From positions 1-24,706 of IMG/VR virus record IMGVR_UViG_3300035670_001188: DNA of 24,706 nt, one strand, 5' to 3'. Numbering within the stretch: the stretch's first letter is position 1; each line of letters opens with the position of its first letter. The stretch comes from a virus. The notes beneath the pieces were generated by a model, which worked only from the letters and a program-made list of their open reading frames with translations, made no database searches and was not told where the DNA came from. Below, piece after piece: positions 2,136-24,416 of this stretch. Position numbers and translations under genes: made by a program.

Positions 2136-2579
2136 TTAGGTTCTTTCCCAATAATTTAATGTAAACTCAACCTCCACAGTCTGTACGTCGCCGCTTTCGC
2201 GATCAACATCAGCGGTGGTGATGCTCACAAACTGACACTCGTAGCAGATGTACTGACCGCCGCCAGGGGCAGCGCCTTCACCAATACAATCACGTGGGGT
2301 GACGGTAATAGTGATAGGATTACAGTTGTAATCGAGCCAGAACTGTTCAAGAGCCTTGAAAATTGTGGGATCGTACGGAGCAGTTAATGTAACATTATCT
2401 GCGGTCCGCGGGCCAACAACGTGGTACAGACGGTTGCCTGTGCCATTAGCGTAGGTGCTGCTATCCGAGGAATCATTGATTCCACTAAATTGTGTAAAGA
2501 CCGCTGTGAAAGTCGGTCCGCCAAGGGCAGTGAAGGAAACTTCGTACTGCGCCTTTGTTAATGGGCGAAGAATGGCCAT
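2136..2579 (-). CDS. Probable tail tube protein
   Basis: A 147-aa protein of the size and character of contractile-tail tube subunits. It has an N-terminal beta hairpin region (YEVSFTALGGPTFTAVFTQF), a central loop rich in Ser/Asn, a helix (PYDPTIFKALEQFWLDYN) and C-terminal strands (QYICYECQFVSITTADVD, TVEVEFTLNYWERT). This matches the fold order of T4 gp19/P2 FII-type tubes, which line the tail lumen inside the sheath. The start is well supported by GGAGG 7 nt upstream of the ATG. It lies directly downstream of the capsid gene (26-nt gap), far from the sheath gene. The assignment rests on sequence character and context; a different tail protein is possible. Confidence 0.6.
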   Translation of the reverse strand: MAILRPLTKAQYEVSFTALGGPTFTAVFTQFSGINDSSDSSTYANGTGNRLYHVVGPRTADNVTLTAPYDPTIFKALEQFWLDYNCNPITITVTPRDCIGEGAAPGGGQYICYECQFVSITTADVDRESGDVQTVEVEFTLNYWERT

Positions 2580-4310: not shown

Positions 4311-5074
4311 TAACGGTATTCGATGTAACATCGGCACCGGTCATAGCAGCGACAACCTTTGCCAGGCATGGGAAGCTCGCCGATAGGGGCCCAACCTTGT
4401 TCGCCGTAGTTCTTGCAGTCTACGCAGACTTTCTTATCTTGTTTTGCAACCCTGCGCATTTCTTTGTAACCCAAATCTTGGGCCACCATATATTCGCCAA
4501 GGTTGTAAAAAGAGAAGGTCGGGGTGGCCAGGTAACGTGAAACTCGTTCCGCCAGGGAAGGCCAGGTTCTGCCTTGTGCTCTCTGCTGCGAAGCCTCTTG
4601 GATTCCTTTCTCTTCGGGATTGATTCCTTCGATGGTGTCAGCTTCGAGGTCTATTGCTCCGGGAACCGCACCGAGCAGACCATAATCTGCGAAGTCAACG
4701 GTTTGATCCCCTAATCGGAGTACGCCAGAGTCAATGTATTCCTTGGTCTCTGCCAAGAACTTTGTAAGAGGTGGGAGCATGTCGCCGACGATAATAGGCC
4801 AGCACTTCTCCAACTTCTGGTCGGTTGATTTCTCTTTGAGGCCAAGAATACAAGCGGCTAGAGCGGAGACGAGAGTTTTATCCAAAAGGGTTCTTTCGTA
4901 TTCCCCCCACTTCATCAGCTTATCTCGGAGCCCCTTCACAAGGCCAAGGGACTCTGCCTTCATCCGTTCTTCCAGACGGGGCTGCTCTTTGTATTTTCGA
5001 GCAAGAGTTTTGGCCTGTGAGAAGTAATCGGACCTTCTCTTCGTGGCCATAGAAACCATTGAGAGGAGATCCAT
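4310..5074 (-). CDS. Putative minor head / head morphogenesis protein (MuF-like C-terminus)
   Basis: A 254-aa protein. The N-terminal half is basic and helical (residues 1-110, KRRSDYFSQAKTLARKYKEQ). The C-terminus ends in a dense Cys cluster (VCVDCKNYGEQGWAPIGELP, then GKGCRCYDRCRCYIEYR) that looks like a metal-binding module. MuF-type minor head proteins, which sit at the portal and contact DNA or internal proteins, often end in a comparable 'C..C ... PG..C.C' element. The Mu-like context (portal and Mu I-like protease upstream) supports this. The full MuF domain is not recognisable, so the call is tentative. GAGG overlaps the TGA of the scaffold gene, giving translational coupling over a 7-nt gap. 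Confidence 0.5.
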   Translation of the reverse strand: MDLLSMVSMATKRRSDYFSQAKTLARKYKEQPRLEERMKAESLGLVKGLRDKLMKWGEYERTLLDKTLVSALAACILGLKEKSTDQKLEKCWPIIVGDMLPPLTKFLAETKEYIDSGVLRLGDQTVDFADYGLLGAVPGAIDLEADTIEGINPEEKGIQEASQQRAQGRTWPSLAERVSRYLATPTFSFYNLGEYMVAQDLGYKEMRRVAKQDKKVCVDCKNYGEQGWAPIGELPMPGKGCRCYDRCRCYIEYR

Positions 5075-5081
5075 AACTACC

Positions 5082-7796
5082 TCAGCTGAACATGGCTTTC
5101 TTCAGGGCTTCCACATAATCTAGTTGACCTTCAGAGGCTTCTACCATCTTAAGGGCACGAGCGTGGGGATCCAGGTCTGCTTCTTCTGCATACTGGAAAG
5201 TACCACCGGCCACTTCACCGAAGTGAACCATCGGAGGCAGGTTGCTCAGCAGGTTTAGCAGCTTGGTGGCTGCGGTCTCACCCTCGGAGAATTCCAGAGT
5301 GCCGAACTCCAGGCCCTCAACATAAGAGAGAAGCTCTTGCTCAGGCATGATGCCGTCAGTCAGACGACCTTCAGTGTACAGATGTCCGATGGCCTCGGCC
5401 ATTTGCATCCGACGGAAGTTCATCTTCTCCTGACGGTTACGGTTCTCCAGCTCAGCGTACTTTTGCTTCAGGTTGGCCAGCTCCTCATACATGGCAGACA
5501 TGTCCATCATGCCACGATTTAAACTTGGCGCTTGACCCATTGAACCCATACCGCCATATTCCATGCCACAGTGGTCAACACTGTAACCTTCGCCATAGCT
5601 CTCTTCACCCTCGTCAACACCGTCGTCGCCTTCGCCTTCCTCGTAGGTGGAACCGAAGCCGGTCTTGGTGTAGGGGTCTTTTTTGCCTTCAGCATGCTCT
5701 TCAGCATACACGCCGCCAGACTTTTTGGTGACTTCGGCAGGATCGGTCAGAGAATCCTGAGCGCCAGGAGTCAGTTGCTTGTTCTTGGCAGGCTTGCCGT
5801 CACCGATGTTGTCACGGAGAGACTGCAGGGAGGCTTCACCGTAAGCGCCGCCGGGCCCAACAGTTTCATCGGCCTCATCCACACGATCCATAGCACCTGG
5901 AATCAGTTGCTTGTTGGTGGACTTCTTCTCGCCCTTGTAAGACTCGGCATAGGCACCGGAGGGGCCAACAATTTCACCGGGGGTGTCAATGTCATCCATA
6001 GCGCCAGGAATCAGCTGACGGTTCTTGGACTTCTTGCCATCGCCAACCTCGTCCCGCAGAGTTTCCAGGCTGGCACCGCTATCAGCGTCGTCAGTCTCGT
6101 ACTCAGCGTGCTCTACAGTCTTGCTGGAGGTCATACCCTTACGAGCAGTGGTTACACCGTCATCGCCGGTCATTTCGTCAGCTTGAGGCTCACCGTAGAG
6201 GTAATCGTGAGTACCCACAGACTTAGCACGGGCATCAGAAGACTTCTGACGCAGAACTCGCATATTCTTGTCAGACATGACGTTTGTCGTCTGAACGGCA
6301 AAAACCTCGTCGTCCGGCATTTCTTCCGATTCTGTCGGGATTTTGGTTTCGGTTTCGTCGCGTCCGTAAGGGTCGGAACCATCGGAAACTTTGGGGGCGT
6401 TCACACCATAATCTTTGGCACCAGCATTATACTGGTCCATGTTGGACACTTGGTCGTAGCCATCCTCTTGACCAGCCCAGCGGCTCTCACCATCGGCATT
6501 GTCTTTGGACGCTTTGGCAGTGTGCATACGATCCCGGTCTTGCTCACCGTTCTCTGCGGTGTGCATACGGTCGCGATCTTGCTCGCTGGACTTGGCGGTT
6601 TTCATACGGTCAGAGCCATTTCCGCCTCCCGGCGCTTTGCCGGTCTTCATCCGATCAACATAACCGTTATCAGCGGAGCGAGCGGTTTCATAGCGACCAG
6701 TGGGGTCCTCAGCGTGATCGGCAGAACCTGGGCCACCATCACCACCATGACGCTTCTGTACGCCAGAATCAGTCATGTCCTCATCCTCAGAGTGCTTAGC
6801 CTCTTTGATAAGTTTATCCTCCTCTTTACCGAACCGCTTCACCTCTTTGGCTTCGCTAGGCTTACCTTCCTTCTTCATGCGCTTGGCTTCGAAGGCACGG
6901 TCAGCAGCAGCTTTGCGCTCGTCGGTAGATTCTTTGTGAGCTTCGTCGTAGACGTTTTCTACAACTTGCATAACTTGGCCGTTGGCACCTTTAGCGTGCT
7001 TCCGGCTGATTTTTCCTTGGTCCATAAATTCCTCTTCCGGAAATTGATCTTCGAGGTCAGCCGTCTGCTGAGCGATTTCAGTTCCTTCGCGACCCGCGTT
7101 TGTAGTGGATTCTTTGAATTGGGGAGCGTCTGGATTAGCCATCTGCCCGAGTTCGGGCTGCTCCGTCACAGACGAAGTGGTAACTTCTTCCAGATTCTCG
7201 GTAGGTTGTGCTTGTTGGTTGCCTTGTAGTTCTTTTACCGCACTTGACACATCCTGACGGACTTCATCAAGCTTCTCTCGGAGCATCTCCAACGGGCTTT
7301 TTTCCACGATGAGCGTGGGTCCAAGTTCCTCATCGAAGATATCCGAGGGAGCGAGAGCTACGGCAAAGTCGTAAACTCCCTCCACCTCCGAGAAGGAGAA
7401 GGGTTCTAAACCTTTTACTGCCGGGGGAGAGGCCCCCAGCAAGGCAAGGTGTCGGGCACTCCACTGACCCTTGTGAGGATTGATTGCGCTATCAGGAGAA
7501 TAAAAAGAGATGGATACCTTTCGGTAGTGACCGTCTTTTACTAGATCCTTGGCAGTGTCCGTAAAGGCAACATCGGCATACAAATTACCCCCCTGCTTGC
7601 TGAATCCTTTGATCCAACCGTATGCAGGAAGGCTGTCGTTGTCACCGGCGTGACCGATTACAAGGGGGGCTTCATGGATCGAGGGATCATATGTTTTGAC
7701 TACCTGCTCAAGATCCTTTTCAGAGAAATGCCTCTGAACTCCTTGGGCAGAAGTCTGATCACCTGCTTTGAAGACGTGGATGCGTTTTGTAAACAC
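5082..7796 (-). CDS. Capsid maturation protease-scaffold fusion (Mu I-like), enlarged
   Basis: The N-terminal ~140 residues look like the Mu gpI-type prohead protease. They contain 'APLVIGHAGDNDSLPAYGWI' (candidate catalytic His49), 'YRKVSISFY' (candidate Ser95) and 'LALLGASPPAVKGL'. These self-cleaving serine proteases are fused to a scaffold that shapes the prohead. Residues 150-760 are highly charged and low complexity, with four RM(K/H)T repeats (381-425) and three repeats built on QL(I/T)PGA and G-(A/V)-Y-(A/G)-E (586-700). A coiled coil (769-800) and a C-terminal capsid-binding-like tail (YVEALKKAMF) follow. At 904 aa it is far larger than the usual 300-400 aa. The start codon is GTG at 7796 with no clear Shine-Dalgarno sequence; a GGGTAAAA element lies 28 nt upstream. 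Confidence 0.8.
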   Translation of the reverse strand: MFTKRIHVFKAGDQTSAQGVQRHFSEKDLEQVVKTYDPSIHEAPLVIGHAGDNDSLPAYGWIKGFSKQGGNLYADVAFTDTAKDLVKDGHYRKVSISFYSPDSAINPHKGQWSARHLALLGASPPAVKGLEPFSFSEVEGVYDFAVALAPSDIFDEELGPTLIVEKSPLEMLREKLDEVRQDVSSAVKELQGNQQAQPTENLEEVTTSSVTEQPELGQMANPDAPQFKESTTNAGREGTEIAQQTADLEDQFPEEEFMDQGKISRKHAKGANGQVMQVVENVYDEAHKESTDERKAAADRAFEAKRMKKEGKPSEAKEVKRFGKEEDKLIKEAKHSEDEDMTDSGVQKRHGGDGGPGSADHAEDPTGRYETARSADNGYVDRMKTGKAPGGGNGSDRMKTAKSSEQDRDRMHTAENGEQDRDRMHTAKASKDNADGESRWAGQEDGYDQVSNMDQYNAGAKDYGVNAPKVSDGSDPYGRDETETKIPTESEEMPDDEVFAVQTTNVMSDKNMRVLRQKSSDARAKSVGTHDYLYGEPQADEMTGDDGVTTARKGMTSSKTVEHAEYETDDADSGASLETLRDEVGDGKKSKNRQLIPGAMDDIDTPGEIVGPSGAYAESYKGEKKSTNKQLIPGAMDRVDEADETVGPGGAYGEASLQSLRDNIGDGKPAKNKQLTPGAQDSLTDPAEVTKKSGGVYAEEHAEGKKDPYTKTGFGSTYEEGEGDDGVDEGEESYGEGYSVDHCGMEYGGMGSMGQAPSLNRGMMDMSAMYEELANLKQKYAELENRNRQEKMNFRRMQMAEAIGHLYTEGRLTDGIMPEQELLSYVEGLEFGTLEFSEGETAATKLLNLLSNLPPMVHFGEVAGGTFQYAEEADLDPHARALKMVEASEGQLDYVEALKKAMFS
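5697..6041 (-). repeat. Three ~40-residue tandem repeats within the scaffold region
   Basis: Residues 586-700 of the protease-scaffold contain three diverged units of the form N-(R/K)-QL(I/T)PGA-x-D ... G-(A/V)-Y-(A/G)-E. They begin with KKSKNRQLIPGAMDD, KKSTNKQLIPGAMDR and KPAKNKQLTPGAQDS. The recurring YAE/YGE could be cleavage sites for the phage's own protease (inference). Confidence 0.6.
6516..6656 (-). repeat. Four short RM(K/H)T repeats within the scaffold region
   Basis: Residues 381-427 contain DRMKTGK, DRMKTAK, DRMHTAE and DRMHTAK, the last three separated by SEQDR/GEQDR-type linkers. They are tandem low-complexity units in the disordered scaffold centre. Confidence 0.6.
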
Positions 7797-9441: not shown

Positions 9442-9819
9442 TTAGTTGGCGAGGGTGAAGTTGAGAGGTGGCTGAGGTATACCGTTTACCGAATACTGTA
9501 TAAACACGCGGTACAAACCGTTATCGCCTTCTGTCCGCCAGTCACCAGTCACTGACAAGTCACTGAGACCGTCAACATTAAGTAGAATACTGTATTGAAT
9601 GGCCGAATTGATTTGGCCAGGATCGAGAATTTCTAGAACATAATCCCCGATACCGTACTCCGCTCTCATCACCCGCTCGTAATAACGTGTCTCAATGACG
9701 CTGCGGATTTGCTGAGAGATGAGGGCATAGTCCGTGCTTGTCGCCAAGTTCCCATTGGCGACGGTCAAGGGGTAAGAAATACCGCGAATCTGCGGAGATA
9801 GAATGGTGACTTCACTCAT
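9442..9819 (-). CDS. Baseplate wedge protein, gp25/GpW family
   Basis: A 125-aa protein with the typical gp25-like layout: 'LATSTDYALISQQIRSVIET' (helix entering the domain), 'RYYERVMRAEYGIGDYVLEI', then 'INSAIQYSILLNV' and C-terminal strands ending 'FIQYSVNGIPQPP'. In T4, P2, Mu and type VI secretion this small protein contacts the first sheath ring and triggers contraction. Its ATG overlaps the TGA of the preceding gene by 4 nt (ATGA), with GGAG 9 nt upstream. It pairs functionally with the sheath gene two positions upstream and the baseplate J-like gene at the left edge. Confidence 0.85.
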   Translation of the reverse strand: MSEVTILSPQIRGISYPLTVANGNLATSTDYALISQQIRSVIETRYYERVMRAEYGIGDYVLEILDPGQINSAIQYSILLNVDGLSDLSVTGDWRTEGDNGLYRVFIQYSVNGIPQPPLNFTLAN

Positions 9820-10118
9820 CGAATGTATCTCCGAGAGATTTGAAACTCAAGGGCATTGACCCTCTTTCGAACTTCTTCTTTGTTCAAGTCGCTCTCGATT
9901 ACCTTGGGGATCTCCTTTCGAAGAACATCGAGGGTCAACGACTGATAGTATGTGGGATCCACGAGGGATGCTTCTTGTTTCTGGTTGGAAAGAAGGGAGA
10001 AGCAGAGCGCTTCGAGTGAAACACCCTGCTCCTCGGCTTGCAGTTCCAAGTGAAAAAAGAGAGCCTCGGGTATCCGTAGGTTCAGATCCCTGTACATTGT
10101 TTGACTCTCTAGTTTCAT
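9816..10118 (-). CDS. Small protein with ribbon-helix-helix-like N-terminus
   Basis: About 100 aa. Residues ~9-45 (RDLNLRIPEALFFHLELQAE, then EQGVSLEALCFSLLSNQ) follow the ribbon-helix-helix pattern: one beta strand of alternating residues, helix A, a Gly-Val-Ser turn and helix B. CopG/HicB/Arc-type DNA-binding proteins share this pattern. The C-terminal half is helical and charged (VLRKEIPKVIESDLNKEEVR). The ATG at 10118 overlaps the sheath TGA by 1 nt; GTG at 10121 and ATG at 10097 are alternative starts. A repressor-like fold between sheath and baseplate genes is unusual. It may autoregulate the late operon, or the fold may serve a structural role. Confidence 0.6.
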   Translation of the reverse strand: MKLESQTMYRDLNLRIPEALFFHLELQAEEQGVSLEALCFSLLSNQKQEASLVDPTYYQSLTLDVLRKEIPKVIESDLNKEEVRKRVNALEFQISRRYIR

Positions 10119-13100
10119 CACTGGTTAGATTGACCCAGTCCTTGAATGTCCAGCTCTTGCTGCATCTTGCCGATCGCCACACGAATAAGGTCGATCTGAA
10201 TGCGCTCGAGGGTTGGAACAGGGGTCACGAAGACCTTAGCGTTCACAATACCGTTCTCGATGGACTCAGGGGGGTTGATGCGGGCATCGCAGATGACCTG
10301 GAAGGCATCGCTTGGGCGAGCACCAAACAGTGCTCCTTTAACGTACAGATCATTGAGCACACTATTGCCAACTGAGATAATCTGGTTAAAGATTACCCCG
10401 AAGCCGTCGATAACATTAAAGATCTGGCTATCAAAAGCGTTACGGAGCGAGCCATACACTACGTTAAGGATGACGCGAGTGTTTACGAACTGATACAGCT
10501 TCTGCTGAGCGTCATCGGGATTGAGTAGACGGGTGCGACCGCCCCAGATGAACACAGCTGTTTGCGGAAGGCCCGGCAGAGTACGAACCGCGTTGCAACC
10601 CTTAGGATTCAACAGGTTTTGCTGAGCAGAGTTGATGGGAATCTGGGCAGCCACCGCATCAGCCAGCTGATACTTGACGCCAGCAGGCGGGAATTGGTAG
10701 CCTTCTGCGCGGTAGCGACGTACAGCCACACCCGTCACATAAGGTGACGGAGGAATGTACTGACCAGCACCGTTCTCGATCCAAGGACCGTAGTAAGCGA
10801 TGAAGCCGAAGGGGTTACCATAACGCTGAGAGTCCTCAAGCAGGCGGTTGACGTTGTCAACACCGGCTTCCACAAATGCGGCCTGGGGCACACCGTTGAA
10901 GCCAACGCCACGCAGAGCGCGGTCGATGATTTCAGTGGAGGTGATGGCGTCGAAGCGCCAGAGGTTGGAAGGTACTGCTTCCTCTGGGTTGAAGGTAAGC
11001 TCAACCTGAGACTGGTAACAAGGCTGACTGAGGGTGGTCAGATCACCACCGGCAGACGCAGCGGGAACAACAACCCAGTCATAGTTGGTGCCGTCGTAGG
11101 TTACACCGATGAAGTCACCGACCACAACGTTTTGCAGACCGTCGGGAGTAGTTCCTGCAACCACGGAGGTTACAGTGACTTGTGCACCGGCGCCTGGAAC
11201 CAAGGTAACGTTGAGCACGTTGCCAACTGCGTAGCCGGAGCCAAGGGTCACGATTGTGGCTGAGGTAATGGTTCCGGTGGAACCGACAACCACCTTCAGA
11301 GTACATCCTGTGCCGGCACCAGTTGTAGGTACAGTGTAAGTGCCAGGTGTGTAGCCCGAACCAGGGTTGGTGATGGAGACAGAACCAACTTGGTCGTTGG
11401 TGCCAGACACGGTGAAATATACACCGACCAGGCGATTCTGGAGAGCAACCAGGTCATTACCGGAGTCGCCAGTTACTACACCAGCAGCGGTGGAGTAAGT
11501 GCCAGAAACGGTTACGTTACCGGTATTCAGAACATTATTGATAATAAAATCTGAACCTGCAGCAGGACCAACAACGATGTCAAAGGTGTCGCCAGGTGCA
11601 TACCCATTACCGCCAGAAGTGATGGTAATTTGAGTTACGTTGCCGCCAGCGATTACCACTGTGGCTAAAGCACCCGATCCAGTACCCGAGGTGGTATTCA
11701 GAGGCACATTGAAGTAGGTGCCATCAGGCCCGGTAACCGGGGAAGCGGTGTTGATGGTGATCTCAGTGGGGCTTCCGCCGTAAAGAGGACCATTGGTACC
11801 GGCACCGGAAGCGTTGTAATCGCCGCCCAGGATCGGATCGATGGCGGGTACGAAGTAAGCCTCAGGCTGGAAGAACTGATCCACGGTGGGAACGCAATAG
11901 GCGTTCTCAACAACAGCCGAAGGGCTGGTTGTGGGGTTCACCAGATTCAGCTCGGGCAGCCATTCACACAGCTTGGTGCTGGTGAGGTCTTCACCATAAG
12001 GGGTGATTTGATCTTCGCCCAAAACAACAGCGTTGTTATTTAGGAAGATAGAAGCGCCAGGGTTGTTCACGCCAGGGGTGGGAGCCGTAGAAGCATCCGC
12101 AGCCTGGTTGAAGATCGAGCTGGAGTCAAACTCGTACTTACGAGCACGGAGCATCGGCAGAGTGATCAGCTCGGTTACGTTCAGGGTGGTCAGACCGCCA
12201 CCAAGCACCTGGGAGTAGAAGATGCTGGGGAGAGAGACAACCGAGTATCCGGCAGGGATTTGCAGGAACGAGTTGATCGTGTAGTTGCCCAGGGAGTTGG
12301 CCAGGACAAAAGTATTTACGTCAATAACCTTGACCCAGTATGCGTGATAGACCAGTTTGGTGGTCTGGCTCACAAGCTCCTTGGTGAGTGCACCATCGGT
12401 GATGGTAATGGGCTGGGTGAAGTAAACCTTCTGACCGTTGCGAAGGCCGTGTCCAACAGCGGTGAATTGAGCAGCACCAGAGAATGTGGTAACTGTCCCA
12501 CCGTAGGGGGCTACTTGCAGGCTTGCATCGAAAATGGTGCGAGAAACCCAGGTGAGGCGATAGGTCTCAGTGGGTTTTTGCAGGGTGCCGGGCAGGTGCA
12601 GAGTGTTTACACCAGCGCTAGCTCCGGAGATATTCTCGATGAGGTCGGAGGTTTGACCATTGATGTCCACAGGCAGATCCCAGTAAGGATCGGCGTAGGA
12701 GATCAGGCCGGTGTCGCCAGTTGGAGTTCCAACGTAGATGGCGCCATTGGGAATGGTAGTGCCCATATAGGCAGTACCGCCAGCCAGAACAACCTGGTTG
12801 TAGATGTTGGTGGCGTCTACGGGGCTCAGGGCCATATAGACATTGTTCAGCGAGTAGTCGCTGGAGTTAGCCAGATCGTATGGAGGTGCGATCACATAGA
12901 CTTGCTGGTTGTTTAGGTTAACAACAGTGGCACCACCTTGAACGCTAACAGTCTGGAAATCGTTACCAACGGTGTTAGCGCCAGAGAACGAAACTTCCTG
13001 AATGGGGAGAGTTACAGGCCAGTACTGGTCGGTATCAAGGGGAAATACACCGTAGGCTCCGCTTGGAGCAGCGGTAATGGTGTATTGACCGGGATCGAGA

Positions 13101-14347
13101 AGACCCACCTGGGTGGAATCAGCCACAAGGTTGGCAGACTCGTTGATGGCAGTCTCGGCAGACTGACCGAACACGATGGTCTGGTAGGAGAGCTTGTTAT
13201 AGCTTACATCATTACCAGTCCACTCGTAGATGGCGTTGTCAACCAGATACTTGAGGCCGTTTACAAGATCAGCAGCAGCCTGGTGAGGAGTGTAGTTCTC
13301 GTACTCGTTGATGTCAGTCACAAGGAACGGACCGGGATCAGCCAGGGCCATCCACTTGTAGTTGTTGTTCTCGCAGTGAGCAGCAGCAGCAGCGCCCACG
13401 AGAGCACGACCAGCAGCGTCGAACTGAGCATAGGCGGTAGGGGTAACCAGGTAGCCCTGGTCTTGCTGACCGTCGAACGCAGTGTTGATGCACTGGGTGT
13501 AATCCTGGGGAACGCGCTCCAGATCGTTCTGCTGACCAACGATATTCTGGATATCGTAAGCATTCTGCATGAACACGAAGTTGCTTCCGACGGGCAGCAC
13601 TTCGGTAACCACGGACACGTTGCCATCAAAAGTAGTGGCAGCGAAGGTTACGTAGCTGTTCTCAGAGTTGCTGGAAGGATCCAGATCGTTAACCTGACCA
13701 AACTTACGAACATAAACCGAGCTGTTTACAGCGGGGTTGGTCTCGATGGCTTCGGCCACAGCAGCTGCAATGGCTGCGGAGATTTTGCGGTTATTTGCCT
13801 CATCGCCGGCAACATAGTTCACCGGAATGGTAACGGGCACGCCCAGCCACTCGCCATCGGCGGTATAACCGGTGGAGCCGTCTCCGGCAACCAGTTTCAG
13901 GCCGTTGATGATCATTTGCACATACACCTTGTTTCCAGCAATCAAGGAAGAAGGCAGGGAGGTGCTGTTGATCTTGGTGGCGCCAGGAAAGAACTCCACT
14001 TCAACGATTTGACTCGGTGTTCCCACACGAACCACGCGCAGATCGCCGACTTGAGCGTTCTGGAAAAACTCATTTACGCAGTTATAGCTCAGCAGGGAGA
14101 TACGACCGGAAGGAGTTGTAGAAGTGCCGACGCGAATCAATTCCTTGTAGTCGTTCAAGGAGGAGATTGCAATAGGGGTGTTGAAGGGGAAGCGGGTTAC
14201 AGGTACGTTCTCGTCAGTTTCGACGAGCATGTACACTGTTTCAAAACGAGCTGGGGCCGCATTAGCGACTTTGCCAGCCTGCTCATTGATATACACACCG
14301 GGAGCGCCGGGAGTTACCCCGCTGGTCCCGAGAGAAAAAGTTGCCAT
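10118..14347 (-). CDS. Tail sheath protein, greatly enlarged (1409 aa)
   Basis: The N-terminus (TPGAPGVYINEQAGKVANAA) and C-terminus are those of contractile tail sheaths. C-terminal features are 'LPQTAVFIWGGRTRLLNPDD', 'FVNTRVILNVVYGSLRNAFD', 'DARINPPESIENGIVNAKVF' and 'VPTLERIQIDLIRVAIGKMQ'. The C-terminal region (~1130-1400) forms the inner wall that mates with neighbouring subunits. Usual sheath length is ~400-700 aa; here large insertions separate the ends. One is a 'HGLRNGQKVYF'-type beta domain (~620-700). Another is a Gly/Thr-rich repeat segment (~880-1065) shared with the 331-aa protein at 19604-20599. Insertions probably decorate the outside of the tail. The start context is AAAAACATGGC with no clear Shine-Dalgarno sequence; a GGGTAAAA element lies 92 nt upstream. 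Confidence 0.9.
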   Translation of the reverse strand: MATFSLGTSGVTPGAPGVYINEQAGKVANAAPARFETVYMLVETDENVPVTRFPFNTPIAISSLNDYKELIRVGTSTTPSGRISLLSYNCVNEFFQNAQVGDLRVVRVGTPSQIVEVEFFPGATKINSTSLPSSLIAGNKVYVQMIINGLKLVAGDGSTGYTADGEWLGVPVTIPVNYVAGDEANNRKISAAIAAAVAEAIETNPAVNSSVYVRKFGQVNDLDPSSNSENSYVTFAATTFDGNVSVVTEVLPVGSNFVFMQNAYDIQNIVGQQNDLERVPQDYTQCINTAFDGQQDQGYLVTPTAYAQFDAAGRALVGAAAAAHCENNNYKWMALADPGPFLVTDINEYENYTPHQAAADLVNGLKYLVDNAIYEWTGNDVSYNKLSYQTIVFGQSAETAINESANLVADSTQVGLLDPGQYTITAAPSGAYGVFPLDTDQYWPVTLPIQEVSFSGANTVGNDFQTVSVQGGATVVNLNNQQVYVIAPPYDLANSSDYSLNNVYMALSPVDATNIYNQVVLAGGTAYMGTTIPNGAIYVGTPTGDTGLISYADPYWDLPVDINGQTSDLIENISGASAGVNTLHLPGTLQKPTETYRLTWVSRTIFDASLQVAPYGGTVTTFSGAAQFTAVGHGLRNGQKVYFTQPITITDGALTKELVSQTTKLVYHAYWVKVIDVNTFVLANSLGNYTINSFLQIPAGYSVVSLPSIFYSQVLGGGLTTLNVTELITLPMLRARKYEFDSSSIFNQAADASTAPTPGVNNPGASIFLNNNAVVLGEDQITPYGEDLTSTKLCEWLPELNLVNPTTSPSAVVENAYCVPTVDQFFQPEAYFVPAIDPILGGDYNASGAGTNGPLYGGSPTEITINTASPVTGPDGTYFNVPLNTTSGTGSGALATVVIAGGNVTQITITSGGNGYAPGDTFDIVVGPAAGSDFIINNVLNTGNVTVSGTYSTAAGVVTGDSGNDLVALQNRLVGVYFTVSGTNDQVGSVSITNPGSGYTPGTYTVPTTGAGTGCTLKVVVGSTGTITSATIVTLGSGYAVGNVLNVTLVPGAGAQVTVTSVVAGTTPDGLQNVVVGDFIGVTYDGTNYDWVVVPAASAGGDLTTLSQPCYQSQVELTFNPEEAVPSNLWRFDAITSTEIIDRALRGVGFNGVPQAAFVEAGVDNVNRLLEDSQRYGNPFGFIAYYGPWIENGAGQYIPPSPYVTGVAVRRYRAEGYQFPPAGVKYQLADAVAAQIPINSAQQNLLNPKGCNAVRTLPGLPQTAVFIWGGRTRLLNPDDAQQKLYQFVNTRVILNVVYGSLRNAFDSQIFNVIDGFGVIFNQIISVGNSVLNDLYVKGALFGARPSDAFQVICDARINPPESIENGIVNAKVFVTPVPTLERIQIDLIRVAIGKMQQELDIQGLGQSNQ
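11153..11710 (-). repeat. Glycine-rich repeat domain inserted in the sheath protein
   Basis: Residues ~880-1065 contain units of the form GSGYTPGTYT, then GTG-C/A-TL-VV, then G-x-ITSAT, then GSGYAVGN-x-L-x-V. Near-identical units occur in the 331-aa protein at 19781-20266, so the two virion proteins share this module. Confidence 0.7.
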
Positions 14348-16602: not shown

Positions 16603-16790
16603 CAGAGTGCCCGCAGCATATTATAGGTTTCTTGAAGGCTGAAGTAACGAGAGTTGTAAGCACACTCCACTGAGGAAGGAATGACTCGATTTTTCTTATC
16701 GTAAGGTACTGTCATGTAGTAGGTATCAATAATGCCTTTATAGACAAGGACCCCAACATTCTCTACGCGAGACTTCTTAGCTTTTTTCAT
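16602..16790 (-). CDS. Hypothetical small protein (62 aa)
   Basis: Not recognised. It has a basic N-terminus (MKKAKKSRVENVGVLVYKGI), followed by 'IDTYYMTVPYDKKNRVIPSS' and a C-terminal helix (FSLQETYNMLRAL). Start and stop are both coupled: its ATG shares one base with the polymerase TGA, and its own TGA shares one base with the next ATG. That tight packing, rather than homology, is the reason for calling it a gene. Confidence 0.6.
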   Translation of the reverse strand: MKKAKKSRVENVGVLVYKGIIDTYYMTVPYDKKNRVIPSSVECAYNSRYFSLQETYNMLRAL

Positions 16791-19570
16791 CAGATTACTC
16801 CTTTTTGGATTGCAGTATAACGATTGGTTAGTTTGTTGATGGCCCCAATTTCGGAAAGTTCCATCATTGAGTATTCGGTTCCAAAAGGTTCTTCAGAACC
16901 TTTCTCATTAGAGAGTGTTACGGTTTTTTCTTTTGGTGATTTTCGAAGTCGATTGTCGATTGCAACCGACGAGAAATATGCTCGTGAAAGAGGTAATTCA
17001 GGAATACCTACTGCAGAGTGAAATAGGGACCAGGTGTACATGTGAGCGATTTGAAACAGAACAGCAAATTGTTCTGCGTATCGTTCTGGAGTCATAAACC
17101 AGATCTCGTCGTGGATACTCAGCACAAAACGTGCTGGAATTTTGTATTCTTCTGCCAACCAGTGAACTGCGGTTAGCATGATCGATAAGATTTCAGCACC
17201 CGATGATTGAATAGTCCAATTGACTCGACCTGTCTTGAAATCATCACCTACTGCAGAAGGTCTCATTGCCGTGGAGATTTTGGTACCTAAACAGGGAAGT
17301 GTTGGCACTCTAGACCGCATTGCGATTTCCTCCATATAGTTAAAACAGCCGCTGTCTGAGCCCCCCTCATATACCCCATTTCGTTGCCTACCCTTTTTAC
17401 CTTCAAGAATTCTGTAAGCAAAATTAGTTACTTCTGTAGCAGATTTTTCTGGGTATTTTCGGCGGATATAGGTTTGCACGGCTCGAACCCCGGCTCCGTA
17501 CAACACTGCGAATCCTGCGATTTTGGCGGTGTCTCGGTCCACGCCAGCCAACTTAGCAAGAGCACTATGGGGGTCAGTCCCAGCTTCTTTCGAACCCGAG
17601 AGAACGTTGTACCCAAATGGTGAACAACCGACATGGCCACCTTCCCATTTATCGGAATAAATTGCTGCAATTTGCATTTCTTGGCCATCAAAGTCAGCCC
17701 CTACAATCTTCCAGCCATCTGGAGCTTGCACCCTTGATTTCAATTCGGTCCCAATCCGCCAGTTTTTGGTGGAACACATTGTAACCATCAGGGACTCCAC
17801 AGTGCGGCGAGTTACGGTACCATGGCAGAGGATCTCCGGTAAAGTAACTAGGGCATCTTCACCATGAGGATTAACGGCGGGTAAGAAAATGCGATCCATT
17901 ACGCGCTTGCGAACCGAAGTCCAATATGAGACTGCATTCGCAATCTCGAGCGCTCGCTTCGCCTCCGGTAGGTCACTGTTGAGACGACCAACCTTCATGT
18001 CATCCACAAAATCTTTACTTAACACACCGCCAACATTAGCCCCTGCCCCCTTGGGGTGAGGGATCTTGGTAAGCACACCCTCTTCGTTGTGATAACACCA
18101 GCCCATGTCCCCAGTTTTGATCATTGGGGAACCTTCCCAAGTAAGCTTCAGGAGTAGGTGAGAAAGATCGGACTTTACACCAATGTGTTCATTGGGGTCT
18201 TTGATGAATGGTCGAACCCATTGGGGAATATGAGCATATTTGCCTTTTACTGTCTTCACTTCCCAATTCAACTGGGAGAGCCAAGGATCTTTTGCGGTCC
18301 ATTCCTCCACCATACCAGGATCAGCGAAATAATATTCACGCCACTCATCATAATACTGCCAAACCAAGTCCTGGCAAAGTTTGGTCATTTCCTGATTATG
18401 CTCCTCGAACACTCGCTCAACGTTTTGAATCCATTCCTCCCAGTCAGGAACCAGCGGGATGATTGAGCCATTTAGGTGATAATGCCCACAAAGAGCAACG
18501 GGGCTCGGAGTGGCATCCAGGTATTTTGGCCAAAGAGCTTGAAAAAGTTCGGCTGTATAGAAAGCGTCTTTCACCGCATAGTCGACAGCATCTGCCAGCA
18601 TACTGTTAATTTGGCTTAAATGATTCGCTTTGACAAAAATTTCCCGGATTATTTTGTCGCCAACGTCCAAAGGTTTGGCTTCGTCCCCAAAGAATTTTCT
18701 GACTTCGTATACATGGAAGTTATAGGTAGCTATCAAAGAGTTGGTTGCTCCTTCTTCGAGCCATTTTGGAGCGTATCTTAGTTTTCTTTTTTCTTCTTCT
18801 GTTAAATTCTCAGGATCTTTTGCAGCTAATACGTATAACCAACGCTGTCCTCCAGCCAGCCCCGAGACACCAATATGAGCCGACAGTGTGTCAAAATAGA
18901 AATTCTCAGGTTTGGTGCGATCGAGTGAGTAACCCTCTCGGGCCCGCACACGATCGTAGGAAATATTGTGGCCAACAACGAAGCGATTTTCACCGATAGG
19001 AATCAGGGAGTGTTGATCCCACTGATCCTCCGGGATATCCGGATCAATAAGTTCAGAAGCCAACCAAATGTAAGCCGCCTTGGCAGATAGCGCAGTGCCA
19101 ATAATTGGAAACGCGCCACCATGCACATAAGTCTCAGTATCGTATGTGAATGCCTTTTCCAGAGGGTATGGTACGGACTCTGTTTTCCATTTACCGTTGT
19201 TCTTTGTGTATCGCACCCACCCTGGTTTAAACACCAGGATTTCTTTTGGCGGGATCGGGGGTAATTGACAAGACGAGAATTCATCGGCCAGCACTTTATA
19301 ATCTTGAATTTGATTGAGTGCTATTTGTTCGAAATGTTGTTTTAGGTTTTCTCCTTTCAGTTCAGGGAGAGGTAAAGGGCCGTCATACAAGTTGTCAGGG
19401 TAGTCTACAGGTGTGGAAATGCTAAATTGCTTCAGGAGATTCTCAGCCCGCTGTTTTTCCAGTCGGGTCATTACCTTGGGGATCTCTTTACCAAAAATCC
19501 TCTCGTGAAGATCTTCAGAGAGGACTGGATAACCGAGGGGAGTTTTCCGCATAGGCGTTGGGTTTTGCAT
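16790..19570 (-). CDS. DNA polymerase, family A, mitochondrial gamma-like
   Basis: A 926-aa replicative polymerase. The 3'-5' exonuclease motifs are present: Exo I YDTET (Asp144, Glu146), Exo II VVGHNISYDR (Asp206), Exo III YAVKDAFYTAELFQ (Asp335). The polymerase motifs are: A 'IVGADFDGQEMQIAAIYSD' (Asp626), B 'RDTAKIAGFAVLYGAG' (Arg679, Lys683, Tyr691) and C 'LSIHDEIWF' (Asp821). Beyond family-A basics it carries gamma-type stretches: 'GGSDSGCFNYMEEIA', 'LGTKISTAMRPSAV' and 'GRVNWTIQSSGAEIL'. These align closely with my recollection of human POLG 'GGTESEMFNKLESIA', 'LGCCISRALEPSAV' and 'SRVNWVVQSS'. It is shorter than POLG (~1240 aa). It lies among tail genes, not in a replication cluster. 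The ATG at 19570 has a weak RBS; ATG at 19552 is an alternative. Confidence 0.93.
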   Translation of the reverse strand: MQNPTPMRKTPLGYPVLSEDLHERIFGKEIPKVMTRLEKQRAENLLKQFSISTPVDYPDNLYDGPLPLPELKGENLKQHFEQIALNQIQDYKVLADEFSSCQLPPIPPKEILVFKPGWVRYTKNNGKWKTESVPYPLEKAFTYDTETYVHGGAFPIIGTALSAKAAYIWLASELIDPDIPEDQWDQHSLIPIGENRFVVGHNISYDRVRAREGYSLDRTKPENFYFDTLSAHIGVSGLAGGQRWLYVLAAKDPENLTEEEKRKLRYAPKWLEEGATNSLIATYNFHVYEVRKFFGDEAKPLDVGDKIIREIFVKANHLSQINSMLADAVDYAVKDAFYTAELFQALWPKYLDATPSPVALCGHYHLNGSIIPLVPDWEEWIQNVERVFEEHNQEMTKLCQDLVWQYYDEWREYYFADPGMVEEWTAKDPWLSQLNWEVKTVKGKYAHIPQWVRPFIKDPNEHIGVKSDLSHLLLKLTWEGSPMIKTGDMGWCYHNEEGVLTKIPHPKGAGANVGGVLSKDFVDDMKVGRLNSDLPEAKRALEIANAVSYWTSVRKRVMDRIFLPAVNPHGEDALVTLPEILCHGTVTRRTVESLMVTMCSTKNWRIGTELKSRVQAPDGWKIVGADFDGQEMQIAAIYSDKWEGGHVGCSPFGYNVLSGSKEAGTDPHSALAKLAGVDRDTAKIAGFAVLYGAGVRAVQTYIRRKYPEKSATEVTNFAYRILEGKKGRQRNGVYEGGSDSGCFNYMEEIAMRSRVPTLPCLGTKISTAMRPSAVGDDFKTGRVNWTIQSSGAEILSIMLTAVHWLAEEYKIPARFVLSIHDEIWFMTPERYAEQFAVLFQIAHMYTWSLFHSAVGIPELPLSRAYFSSVAIDNRLRKSPKEKTVTLSNEKGSEEPFGTEYSMMELSEIGAINKLTNRYTAIQKGVI

Positions 19571-19603: not shown

Positions 19604-20599
19604 TCAGAGGGTGCCGATGGGGGGTGCGACAGGGTTGTCTGCAACTGGATACATGAACGAGTATTGAATAACCTGGGGATTATTCACATACTGAGGAGGT
19701 GTAATAGACGAGACTTGGTTTTGGAAGAAGCGGCGGGGGGCTTGCGACCATTTTGGCTCGCCAGCGTCTGTGGCGGTATTGACGGAGGTTACCGTGATGG
19801 AAAGACCGCTTCCCGCACCGATTGTTGCCGGGTTTGGAACCAAGGAATCCCCGGGGACGTAACTGGTGCCGGCAGCATTGAGGACTGCACTAGTGATGCT
19901 TCCGGAAGCCCCGACAACGATGTCCAAGGTGGCGCCGGTTCCATTGCCATTGCTAGTGGTGGTTACACCAGTGTAGGTGCCAGGTGTGTACCCGGAGCCG
20001 GTAATGCCCAACTGAATGGCTGAGACAGTGGCAGCAATGGGGCCAACGGTTACGAAGAAACCGGTGCCTGGACCAATGCCCGAAACCGTTAGACCGTCGC
20101 CAGCGGTATAGCCAGCACCGCCGCTGTTGATGGTAGCGCTGGTGACTACGCCACTTGCGTTGATTACCAGATCCAAGGTGGCTCCTGTACCACTGCCACC
20201 TGTTGTGGGGAGACCTGTGTAGGTGCCCGGGAAGTAGCCAGAGCCACCCCCAAGTCCAACCAGTGAGGTAGCGGGACCCGTTGCGAAGGTGTATGAATGT
20301 ACATCATACTCGAACATTGTTGGGTCGCCAGGATTTACGTTGTAAGCGTTTGGCGGTAGCTCGGTGTAGTAGTCGTAGTAGTTGGTGGTCCAGCCTTTGA
20401 GAACAGGCTGAACCTCTGTTAAGGACGGTAAATTGACTGGGGCGCCTACGGTTTCCTTGTACTGCCATGCTTTTTTATTGACGGTGTTAGGAACGACGGA
20501 GAGATACCCGTTGAGGATGATATTGCCGTAATTTTCTAAGTCTGAAGTGGTAAAGGTGGTTGCCACCGCCTTTGCCATTTGAACTGTGCGTGGAATCAT
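19604..20599 (-). CDS. Virion structural protein with glycine-rich repeats (331 aa)
   Basis: The N-terminal ~110 residues are unique (TTSDLENYGNIILNGYLSVV, LPPNAYNVNPGDPTMFEYDV). Residues ~112-190 and ~194-273 are two copies of a beta-rich unit: GSGYFPGTYT/GSGYTPGTYT, then GTGATLDLVI/GTGATLDIVV, then SG-x-(V/I)TSA, then GAGYTAGD/GTSYVPGD. The same unit lies within the tail sheath protein of this phage. The C-terminus is short and Pro-rich (PPQYVNNPQVIQYSFMYPVA). Composition suggests a surface or fibre-like virion protein. A GGGTAAAA element ends 24 nt upstream of the ATG; ATG at 20578 is an alternative start. The exact place in the virion cannot be told. Confidence 0.7.
   Translation of the reverse strand: MIPRTVQMAKAVATTFTTSDLENYGNIILNGYLSVVPNTVNKKAWQYKETVGAPVNLPSLTEVQPVLKGWTTNYYDYYTELPPNAYNVNPGDPTMFEYDVHSYTFATGPATSLVGLGGGSGYFPGTYTGLPTTGGSGTGATLDLVINASGVVTSATINSGGAGYTAGDGLTVSGIGPGTGFFVTVGPIAATVSAIQLGITGSGYTPGTYTGVTTTSNGNGTGATLDIVVGASGSITSAVLNAAGTSYVPGDSLVPNPATIGAGSGLSITVTSVNTATDAGEPKWSQAPRRFFQNQVSSITPPQYVNNPQVIQYSFMYPVADNPVAPPIGTL
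19781..20266 (-). repeat. Two glycine-rich ~80-residue repeats shared with the sheath protein
   Basis: Tandem units at residues ~112-190 and ~194-273 of the 331-aa protein. Each has GSGY-x-PGTYTG near its start and GTGATLD-(L/I)-V in the middle. They match the sheath insertion at 11153-11710. Confidence 0.7.
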
Positions 20600-22478: not shown

Positions 22479-24416
22479 TTAAAGAGAGATCTCGGATAGT
22501 GCGGCAACTTTGATGCCCTTTGCACCAGGGTTCGCAGTCTTTAGACTTAAGTCCAGTTTAAGGCTTTTCTTTCGGGAAGACACCCAAGGAACATTATAGG
22601 AGTTTTCACCAAAGTGAATTACTGTGGCTCCCTCAGGCACAAGCCTTTTTCCTTTGCTTGTTGTCTTAACAAGGCTTTCTCCGCTAAGGGTCATCGCCTT
22701 TAGGGAACCTTCGAGTGTAAACACTACGAGGTACTTTTTCTGTGTGACGTCAGATTCTTTTTTCGCAAGTAGCACTTCGGAGTAACTTGCGCCGAGAGTT
22801 CCCTTAAAATTAAAAGGAACTTTTTTTAAGTTTCCGTCAGCTGTGATAGTAATCAATTTGTCAGTTTTGTCGAGAACTAGAGCCCCACGAGGACCTTTCA
22901 CATGTTCTACAACACCACGTTTCATGTCAATCTTTAGAAACTTGGGTTTTGATGGAGCCGCTTGTCGAGGGGATCCTTTCTCAACCGTTAAGCTTTCAGG
23001 CGGATCAATTAAGGAGCTGCGGCGAGCTTCACCATAACGCACGCCAATTGCTTTAATTTCCTTCACCATGTATGCTTTACGCACTTTGTCATCTTTAATC
23101 AGAGTATCCAACTCTATAATCTTCTTTGAGATTTCTTTCTCTTCGACTAAAAGCTCTTGGGAATCTAAGTTGGTAAGGGCGCGGAGGCGCATTTCTAAGA
23201 TGGCTCTTGCCTGATCTGATGTGAATTTCAGGGCTCGGTTACTCACAAGTTCAATCAGAGCTTCTTTCGGTGATTGCGCGGAACGAATGATTTTAATGAC
23301 TGCATCAATCTTGTCGATAGCTTTGAGATACCCGCGAACGATCTCTAAACGTTGCTCTGCGGCGTCAAGCTCGTGCTTGAATTTAGCACCCAACCGAGCC
23401 AATCGCCATGTTTGCCAACGCGTAAGAAGTTGACTTGGAGAGAGTTCGACTGGTTTCGTCCCGTCCACAACCAGCAACCGCGCCGAATATTTAGTGTCCA
23501 GGTCACAGTAATGGTAGAGTTGTCGGATTGCCAGTTGGCAATCGGTCCCAGACTTGAGAGTAACTGTGATACGGTCTCCGGTAAGATCAGAGTCATCTCG
23601 CACATTGCTGATTCCTTGGATAGTACCTTTATCGAGTCCGTCTTTAATTTGTTGTCCAATCTTTTCAGGATTTGTGCCGTTTGGGAGATTACAGAATGTT
23701 AGTATTGTTTTTGATCTGCCTCCTTTCCCTTCGGAGCTAACTTCACATTTGGCTCTCAGCCGTAAGGTCCCGATACCTGTTTGTTGATAAGCTGCTAAAC
23801 CTTCGTCATTGACAATGTCGCAACCAGTTGGGAATGATGGGACAAGGTTCCCACCTTTTGTGAGAGACTCGCAGATATCTCGGAGAGAATGCGGGGGAAT
23901 CTTTGTTGCGAAGCCAACTCCGATACCATCTTGCCCATTTAGGAGGACCGTGGGCACTTTAACATTCAATTCGACGGGTTCCTGAAGAGAACCATCATAG
24001 TTTGGTACGGTTTGCCAAGTTTCGGAGTCTTGTAGGAGGCAATCCCACGAGAAAGCAGTTAGTTTGGCCTCCGTATAACGGCTGGCTGCGGCGCCATCTA
24101 CAGATGATCCCCAATTGCCTTGACCGTCGATAAGCGGTAAGTTGTTGTTCCAGGGAGCAGCCAGTGTTACCATAACGCCATAGGCACCTCCGTGAGGGTG
24201 CAATTTACCCATGGCCTCGCCTTCGACTCGAGCGCTCTTCATATATTTGCCGTCAGGTTTGAGCCCCAGCCATTTCATCGCGGTTAGAACTCGGCGTTGG
24301 GCTGGCTTCAAACCGTCAGTTAAGCTTGGGATGGCACGGCCAATGAGAACCGCCATCGAGTACGCAAGATAATCATCTTGAATTTGACGAGAGAGATTTG
24401 TGGAAATGTCAGACAT
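22479..24416 (-). CDS. Type IIA DNA topoisomerase, subunit A (GyrA/ParC/T4 gp52 family)
   Basis: A 645-aa cleavage subunit. 'YLAYSMAVLIGRAIPSLTDG-LKPAQRRVL' and 'GEAMGKLHPHGG' form the winged-helix DNA gate. 'GAAASRYTEAKL' holds the catalytic Tyr that links to DNA. 'LNGQDGIGVGFATKIPPHSL' and the long coiled-coil arm (KHELDAAEQRLEIVRGYLKA) follow. The C-terminus has a shortened beta-pinwheel-like region (KLITITADGNLKKVPF, YLVVFTLEGSLKAM) without a GyrA box, so decatenation or relaxation is more likely than supercoiling. It is longer than T4 gp52 and shorter than bacterial GyrA. The ATPase subunit must lie outside the window. The start at 24416 has a weak RBS, 3 nt after a 45-aa ORF. Confidence 0.92.
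   Translation of the reverse strand: MSDISTNLSRQIQDDYLAYSMAVLIGRAIPSLTDGLKPAQRRVLTAMKWLGLKPDGKYMKSARVEGEAMGKLHPHGGAYGVMVTLAAPWNNNLPLIDGQGNWGSSVDGAAASRYTEAKLTAFSWDCLLQDSETWQTVPNYDGSLQEPVELNVKVPTVLLNGQDGIGVGFATKIPPHSLRDICESLTKGGNLVPSFPTGCDIVNDEGLAAYQQTGIGTLRLRAKCEVSSEGKGGRSKTILTFCNLPNGTNPEKIGQQIKDGLDKGTIQGISNVRDDSDLTGDRITVTLKSGTDCQLAIRQLYHYCDLDTKYSARLLVVDGTKPVELSPSQLLTRWQTWRLARLGAKFKHELDAAEQRLEIVRGYLKAIDKIDAVIKIIRSAQSPKEALIELVSNRALKFTSDQARAILEMRLRALTNLDSQELLVEEKEISKKIIELDTLIKDDKVRKAYMVKEIKAIGVRYGEARRSSLIDPPESLTVEKGSPRQAAPSKPKFLKIDMKRGVVEHVKGPRGALVLDKTDKLITITADGNLKKVPFNFKGTLGASYSEVLLAKKESDVTQKKYLVVFTLEGSLKAMTLSGESLVKTTSKGKRLVPEGATVIHFGENSYNVPWVSSRKKSLKLDLSLKTANPGAKGIKVAALSEISL

Follow-up and report, generated by a model that had tools for sequence, protein, structure and literature searches.

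Introduction

The sheath of a contractile phage tail is usually regarded as a part of the motor and as tightly constrained. A sheath with a constant core and an insert that grows in steps, takes up modules and is replaced in blocks, as described below, contrasts with this usual view. Its closest solved relative is gp9 of cyanophage A-1(L) (PDB 8kee), a protein of 506 aa in which the sheath-sheath and sheath-tube contacts are made by the N-tail (residues 1-27), domain II (364-460) and the C-tail (461-505) (PMC10966104; this and the other papers given by PMC number are cited for the sections covered). Giant multi-domain sheaths are already known, and size alone is therefore not new. The Type 3 sheaths described in 2022 by Evseev et al. 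(PMC9230969) reach 1283 aa and five or more domains in the part of their table covered. Like the sheath studied here, they consist of a conserved core and several added, mostly beta domains; models and structures of such sheaths place the added domains at a distance from the tube, and adhesion or stabilisation has been proposed for them. Synechococcus phage S-CBWM1, an isolate, encodes a protein of 1492 aa (SCBWM1_gp167) that is already annotated as tail sheath, and the sheath of cyanophage S-TIM5 has 1137 aa. Phage Ig-like domains, small beta domains common to unrelated virion proteins, have been proposed to bind surfaces weakly (Fraser et al. 2006, as cited in PMC9230969 and PMC5259590). Flagellins with hypervariable central insertions (PMC5595980) combine polymerising conserved ends with a displayed variable centre; they are unrelated proteins and serve as an analogy only.

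Here we analysed a virus record of 24,706 bases, referred to as the window. The best matches of its portal and major capsid protein are those of S-CBWM1 (60.7% and 66.3% identity, respectively), and the window thus likely belongs to a cyanophage-like myovirus. Genes for tube, baseplate J, a gp25-like wedge, Neck1, portal and capsid were recognised by Pfam and PHROG profiles around the sheath gene and on the same strand. The tube gene does not adjoin the sheath gene.

Results

A single large insertion in an otherwise normal sheath core

The sheath gene, termed P0001, has an ATG start at 14347 and no interruption over its whole length (Table 1). The preliminary description of this DNA had reported the frame and its 1409 aa, to which we add the minus strand. 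It had also recognised conserved sheath ends, and profile searches bear this out. Residues 1171-1397 match PHROG 17610 'tail sheath' (E 4.4e-44), and the A-1(L) sheath was found with E 6.7e-38, the best stretch being 1163-1399. Using hhalign, residues 9-340 align with A-1(L) 6-251 (probability 95.8) and residues 1163-1399 with A-1(L) 255-482 (probability 99.9), identifying an N-terminal core and a C-terminal sheath domain. A chance open reading frame is ruled out by the PHROG and A-1(L) matches. The curated Pfam cut-off for sheaths was missed (Phage_sheath_1C, 15.6 bits vs 26.9), and the S-CBWM1 sheath likewise had no Pfam match at E 0.05. Since the other sheath evidence is in place, we take the Pfam miss as a sensitivity limit of the Pfam models. 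Judged from its sequence, P0001 is a contractile tail sheath. Its length is 2.8-fold that of the A-1(L) sheath and 2.1-fold that of the T4 sheath (659 aa; table in PMC9230969), in line with the two to three times normal size claimed before.

The two halves of the hhalign alignment meet at A-1(L) residues 251 and 255. Therefore, P0001 residues 341-1162 represent a single insertion in an otherwise normal core. The edges of the insert are uncertain by about 15 residues. The A-1(L) strand preceding the gap has one look-alike in residues 331-340 and another in residues 1153-1161, and alignments with S-TIM5 reach left to 1148-1149, which gives an alternative right edge near 1149. Several extra domains had been proposed for the middle of the protein. 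The extra mass is indeed large and made of many parts, but it enters as one insertion at one core loop. In the profile alignment the insertion point falls in none of the A-1(L) contact elements (N-tail, domain II and C-tail), and the extra mass has thus been added outside the regions through which sheath subunits touch each other and the tube, as had been expected.

Structure searches were carried out with AlphaFold models of 1200 residues, one of the relative L051 (model 1, residues 4-1203) and one of P0001 (model 2, residues 210-1409). In both models the insert is predicted well and the core poorly. The P0001 insert comprises 40% strand and 11% helix at a mean pLDDT of about 87 in model 2, in agreement with the beta-rich middle noted earlier. 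For the C-terminal core, pLDDT is about 54 in model 2 and mostly under 50 in model 1. The best structural match of model 1 is 8kee, with 301 residues aligned across the N- and C-terminal parts (VIA-align, Z 11.5, rmsd 6.1), where pLDDT is low. For a 90-residue domain in the C-terminal core of model 2, several contractile sheaths were retrieved as matches (over 80-90 residues, with Z about 10 and rmsd about 2 Å), and the best structural matches in BFVD were the sheaths of S-CBWM1 and S-TIM5. Structure prediction, which the preliminary description had suggested as a check, thus supports the sheath core on both sides of the insert. Type 3 is defined by three or more domains, with the added ones off the conserved core; with an insert modelled at this confidence and module folds inside it, P0001 would fall into this type. 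Multicopper oxidase and E1 enzyme folds were also returned for the insert; they reached a Z of 6-7 only, below the level that the tool treats as meaningful, and were set aside.

Table 1. Positions of the sheath gene P0001, its parts and further virion genes in the window.
Feature	Position	Strand	Basis or remark
Tail sheath gene P0001, 1409 aa	10118..14347	-	single open frame; PHROG and PDB matches
N-terminal core, residues 1-340	13328..14347	-	hhalign to A-1(L) 6-251; L051 model on 8kee
Insertion, residues 341-1162, 822 aa	10862..13327	-	gap between A-1(L) residues 251 and 255
C-terminal core, residues 1163-1409	10121..10861	-	hhalign 99.9 to A-1(L) 255-482; modelled 90-residue domain
Hypervariable block 1, residues 424-565	12653..13078	-	replaced as a block in relatives; takes module at 471-476 (site 3)
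Variable block 2, residues 612-706	12230..12514	-	takes module at 614-620 (site 4) in four relatives
Module copy 1, site 1, residues 864-948	11504..11758	-	own profile HMM E 1e-20 (seed included); 57% strand in model
Module copy 2, site 2, residues 983-1062	11162..11401	-	alignment and module HMM
Tail tube protein	2136..2579	-	PHROG 35249 E 2e-6; Pfam gp19 sub-threshold
Baseplate wedge protein	9442..9819	-	PHROG 43/261 E about 2e-5
331-aa protein, two beta module copies (20027-20260, 19766-20005)	19604..20599	-	module profile HMM

The insert is conserved in this family of giant sheaths and differs in length by steps

Relatives of P0001 are encoded at 76 loci in IMG/VR. Full-length frames were checked for 46 loci, of which 44 were kept; L036 was dropped because its frame is broken near the N-terminus and L004 because it is cut by the contig end. 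L042, which appears full-length, is absent from the set, and the remaining loci are cut by contig ends. Together with P0001 and S-CBWM1, this gave a set of 46 sheaths. The 45 relatives have lengths of 1203-1614 aa (median 1324). Across the set the core spans 577-604 aa and the insert 619-1026 aa. Insert lengths fall into clusters at 619-645 (n = 15), 710-754 (n = 16), 811-822 (n = 6), 901-927 (n = 8) and 1026 aa (n = 1). In all 46 full-length sheaths aligned, the insert is in frame and conserved.

The S-CBWM1 sheath is 47.7% identical to P0001 over 82% of the query and shares both the insertion point (A-1(L) 251-255) and the scaffold, which makes it a member of the same giant family and type. 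Unlike P0001, it carries other sequence in the variable part, and the beta module described below is absent from the whole S-CBWM1 record. Since S-CBWM1, L048 and L050 have inserts of similar length without the module, the length steps cannot all be module copies. A-1(L) gp9 has the core in common with P0001 (6-251 and 255-482), but no insert at 251-255. The sheaths of S-TIM5 and of 15 IMG/VR relatives (930-1199 aa; 15 measured of 80 retained, from loci L081 and L177-L256) are also oversized and have a homologous C-terminal core. Their extra mass is located between A-1(L) residues 103 and 189 (S-TIM5 127-803), in a different loop from that of P0001. Oversize thus arose at two different loops in the two groups. 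The comparison with cyanophage sheaths, also suggested earlier, therefore confirms the large size of P0001, though this is common to S-CBWM1 and, at the other loop, to S-TIM5. The A-1(L) sheath as single query found no relatives, and a single-query scan with a Leptolyngbya sheath found 10 weak ones.

A small beta module occupies four sites and recurs in other virion genes

Alignment of the 46 proteins revealed a Gly-rich beta module of about 82 aa (80-90 aa) that is inserted at four sites across the relatives. Of the 46 full-length sheaths, 28 have one copy or more. Copy number at site 1 (about 855-950) ranges from none to several. Site 2 (983-1062) is occupied in P0001 only among the 46, and additionally in the partial relative L004. 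Carriers at site 3 are L030, L060 and L073, and those at site 4 are L047, L053, L056 and L058. In model 1, sites 1 and 2 lie right after strands, site 3 in a helix-strand loop and site 4 in a region of short helix and loop. In a tree of the core, the carriers at site 4 group in a single clade (support 99), as do those at site 3 (86); L065, with one copy, is nested in a clade otherwise without modules (supports 85-100). In the group test on this tree, 16 rows were unlabelled, including L065.

A profile HMM was built from 22 seeds, which match by construction. Among 4451 ORFs from 80 sources it matched 43, and shuffled ORFs gave no match. The module occurs somewhere in 26 of 29 whole records, the exceptions being those of L051, L041 and S-CBWM1. 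Within the window, the 331-aa protein is encoded by a second module gene. The site-2 copy of P0001 is 53% and 52% identical to the two copies of this protein over 72-73 aa and 32% identical to the P0001 site-1 copy in the alignment; its best match is the L004 counterpart (78%). The similarity to the 331-aa protein suggests, without proof, an exchange of modules between virion genes. In other records, ORFs of 225-422 aa carry one to three module copies. PHROG relatives of the module comprise baseplate wedge, tail fibre, head closure and other virion proteins.

Within model 2 the module is all-beta, with six to seven strands. It resembles the Ig-like domains as a small beta domain found in unrelated virion proteins. 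It has no significant Pfam match (18 copies searched), and a PDB sequence search found no clear relative (best E 0.015). The analysis names a promiscuous virion module that has no Pfam family. A tblastn search with the module and the 331-aa protein against phage records gave no match, which may reflect the BLAST low-complexity filter, since profile searches do find relatives. The module was absent from the 16 S-TIM5-type sheaths scanned, and searches of P0001 and of the module revealed no carbohydrate-binding family. Identity with domain I of T4 gp18 was considered but found no support: Pfam Gp18_dom_I matched with E 0.0079 (L022) and 0.23 (L063) over about 20 residues only, and module HMM and hhalign gave nothing significant in metaG-MbCM1 gp18.

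Block replacement and purifying selection within the insert

The 45 genes compared form 990 pairs, and in 27 of these pairs the cores are identical at 85% or more of their nucleotides. Eight of them, L038 or L070 compared with L039, L043, L045 or L068, are 97.7-98.9% identical in the core, and identity in comparison windows within residues 424-565 drops to 53-54, 68-70 and 73%. L068 additionally differs from its neighbours at 941-987 (75-76%). The differences are clustered, as 0 of 2000 shuffles reached the observed level in each of three pairs. For L038/L043, dS is 0.28 over residues 341-840 and 0.03-0.04 in the core, which points to recombinational replacement and not to amino-acid selection. 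Outside the sheath gene, identity of these two contigs is mostly 96-100% from position 1601 on (92% at 4801, 86% at the end). A strong drop occurs upstream, at 1001-1600, where an HNH-like ORF interrupts the L043 polymerase gene, and L043/L068 also drop to 75% at 1801-2000. This ORF (L043:508-1284, plus strand) is HNH-like by eye and splits a pol gamma gene whose frame is unbroken in L045 (3-2576). No sharp identity dip was visible in four close pairs (L005/L007, L013/L016, L020/L021 and L039/L043).

The mean identity of all pairs has its minima at 424-565 (52-56%), 612-706 (51-53%) and 847-988 (48-49%), compared to 65-79% in the core. These three regions are the ones that take the module, and alignment near the insertions may depress their identity somewhat. 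In ten pairs, dN/dS was 0.01-0.14 in the core parts, 0.08-0.26 over 341-840, 0.12-0.39 over 841-1065 and 0-0.22 over 1066-1162; the values are rough, because dS exceeds 1 in many comparisons. Being below 0.4 in every region, they indicate that the insert is maintained as protein under purifying selection.

Proposed role of the insert and alternative explanations

According to our proposal, a single polypeptide would form the contractile sheath. Its core, of the A-1(L) type and about 587 aa long, would polymerise around the tube and contract as usual. The insert, about 822 aa long, sits at one loop of this core. Its scaffold is rich in beta structure and includes three or more variable regions; small beta modules have repeatedly entered it, and recombination has exchanged blocks of it. 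The outward position of the insert on the tail is what homology predicts, and each of the many sheath subunits would then display one copy. The insert may engage the host surface, probably its glycans, or nearby particles through numerous weak contacts, and so aid adsorption; such a job would account for a turnover like that of a tail-fibre tip. We consider a normal core with an exposed insert arm for weak surface contact in adsorption to be the best explanation (probability roughly 0.5), exposure and binding being the parts that we infer. For host-surface contact as the function, the odds are about even. A contact partner that varies would best fit the exchange of blocks and the turnover of modules, and the simplest such partner is the host surface. 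More tentatively, the sheath might be a polyvalent, recombining adsorption surface whose arm draws modules from a pool common to other virion genes, so that host contact would be diversified on the tail shaft as it is elsewhere on tail fibres.

It seems rather unlikely that the insert cements neighbouring subunits and stabilises the virion, its variability reflecting relaxed constraint only. Reinforcement of this kind is discussed for added sheath domains in PMC9230969, citing phage 812, and, variable blocks aside, the scaffold is conserved and evolves under purifying selection. However, the parts that change fastest are discrete blocks replaced by recombination, which would be odd for subunit interfaces, and the copy number of the beta module varies from none to several. 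Less probable still is a docking platform that would carry tail fibres in a folded-back state, or appendages resembling whiskers, and would change in step with them. The arm of the A-1(L) long tail fibre lies along a sheath groove (PMC10966104), the contractile tail of phage CBB has whiskers (PMC5259590), and the module is found in other structural proteins of these phages as well, but no appendage gene was linked to the sheath type in this analysis.

Processing, by which the insert would be excised to leave a mature sheath of normal size, was an objection raised with the original claim. It is very improbable: nothing was found in its favour, a single core fold requires the pairing of the N- and C-terminal parts, and the insert is retained in frame throughout the 46 sheaths. 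An assembly fusion of separate genes, the other objection raised there, has practically no chance, as it is excluded by the same architecture in 44 other full-length contigs and in the isolate S-CBWM1.

Literature searches with little coverage of subscription papers found no tail sheath for which turnover of modules or exchange of blocks had been reported, and neither is described for Type 3 sheaths in the sections covered of PMC9230969. As far as this literature goes, what is new is the combination of a constant core with an insert that lengthens stepwise, takes one module at four sites and is replaced in blocks. Turnover in the sheath makes testable the question left open by Evseev et al. 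(PMC9230969), whether added domains serve stability or adhesion, and the isolate S-CBWM1 gives experimental access to this sheath type.

Other genes in the window

Directly after the tail tube gene, an HNH-type ORF is located at 1642-2151 on the minus strand (Pfam HNH, 20.8 bits; cut-off 21.4). A DNA polymerase of 926 aa is encoded at 16790-19570 (minus strand; Pfam DNApol_Exo, E 8.8e-59), and all 14 PDB matches listed for it (E ≤ 0.001) are mitochondrial DNA polymerase gamma, with E about 1e-113. DNA polymerase gamma has already been published for cyanophages S-TIM5 and S-CBWM1 (PMC7156551). A homologue of DNA gyrase or topoisomerase IV subunit A (645 aa, E 4.3e-99) lies at 22479-24416 on the minus strand. 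The 904-aa protein encoded at 5082-7796 (minus strand) matches Mu-like protease I at residues 53-251, and a long charged stretch with repeated motifs was seen by eye after the protease match.
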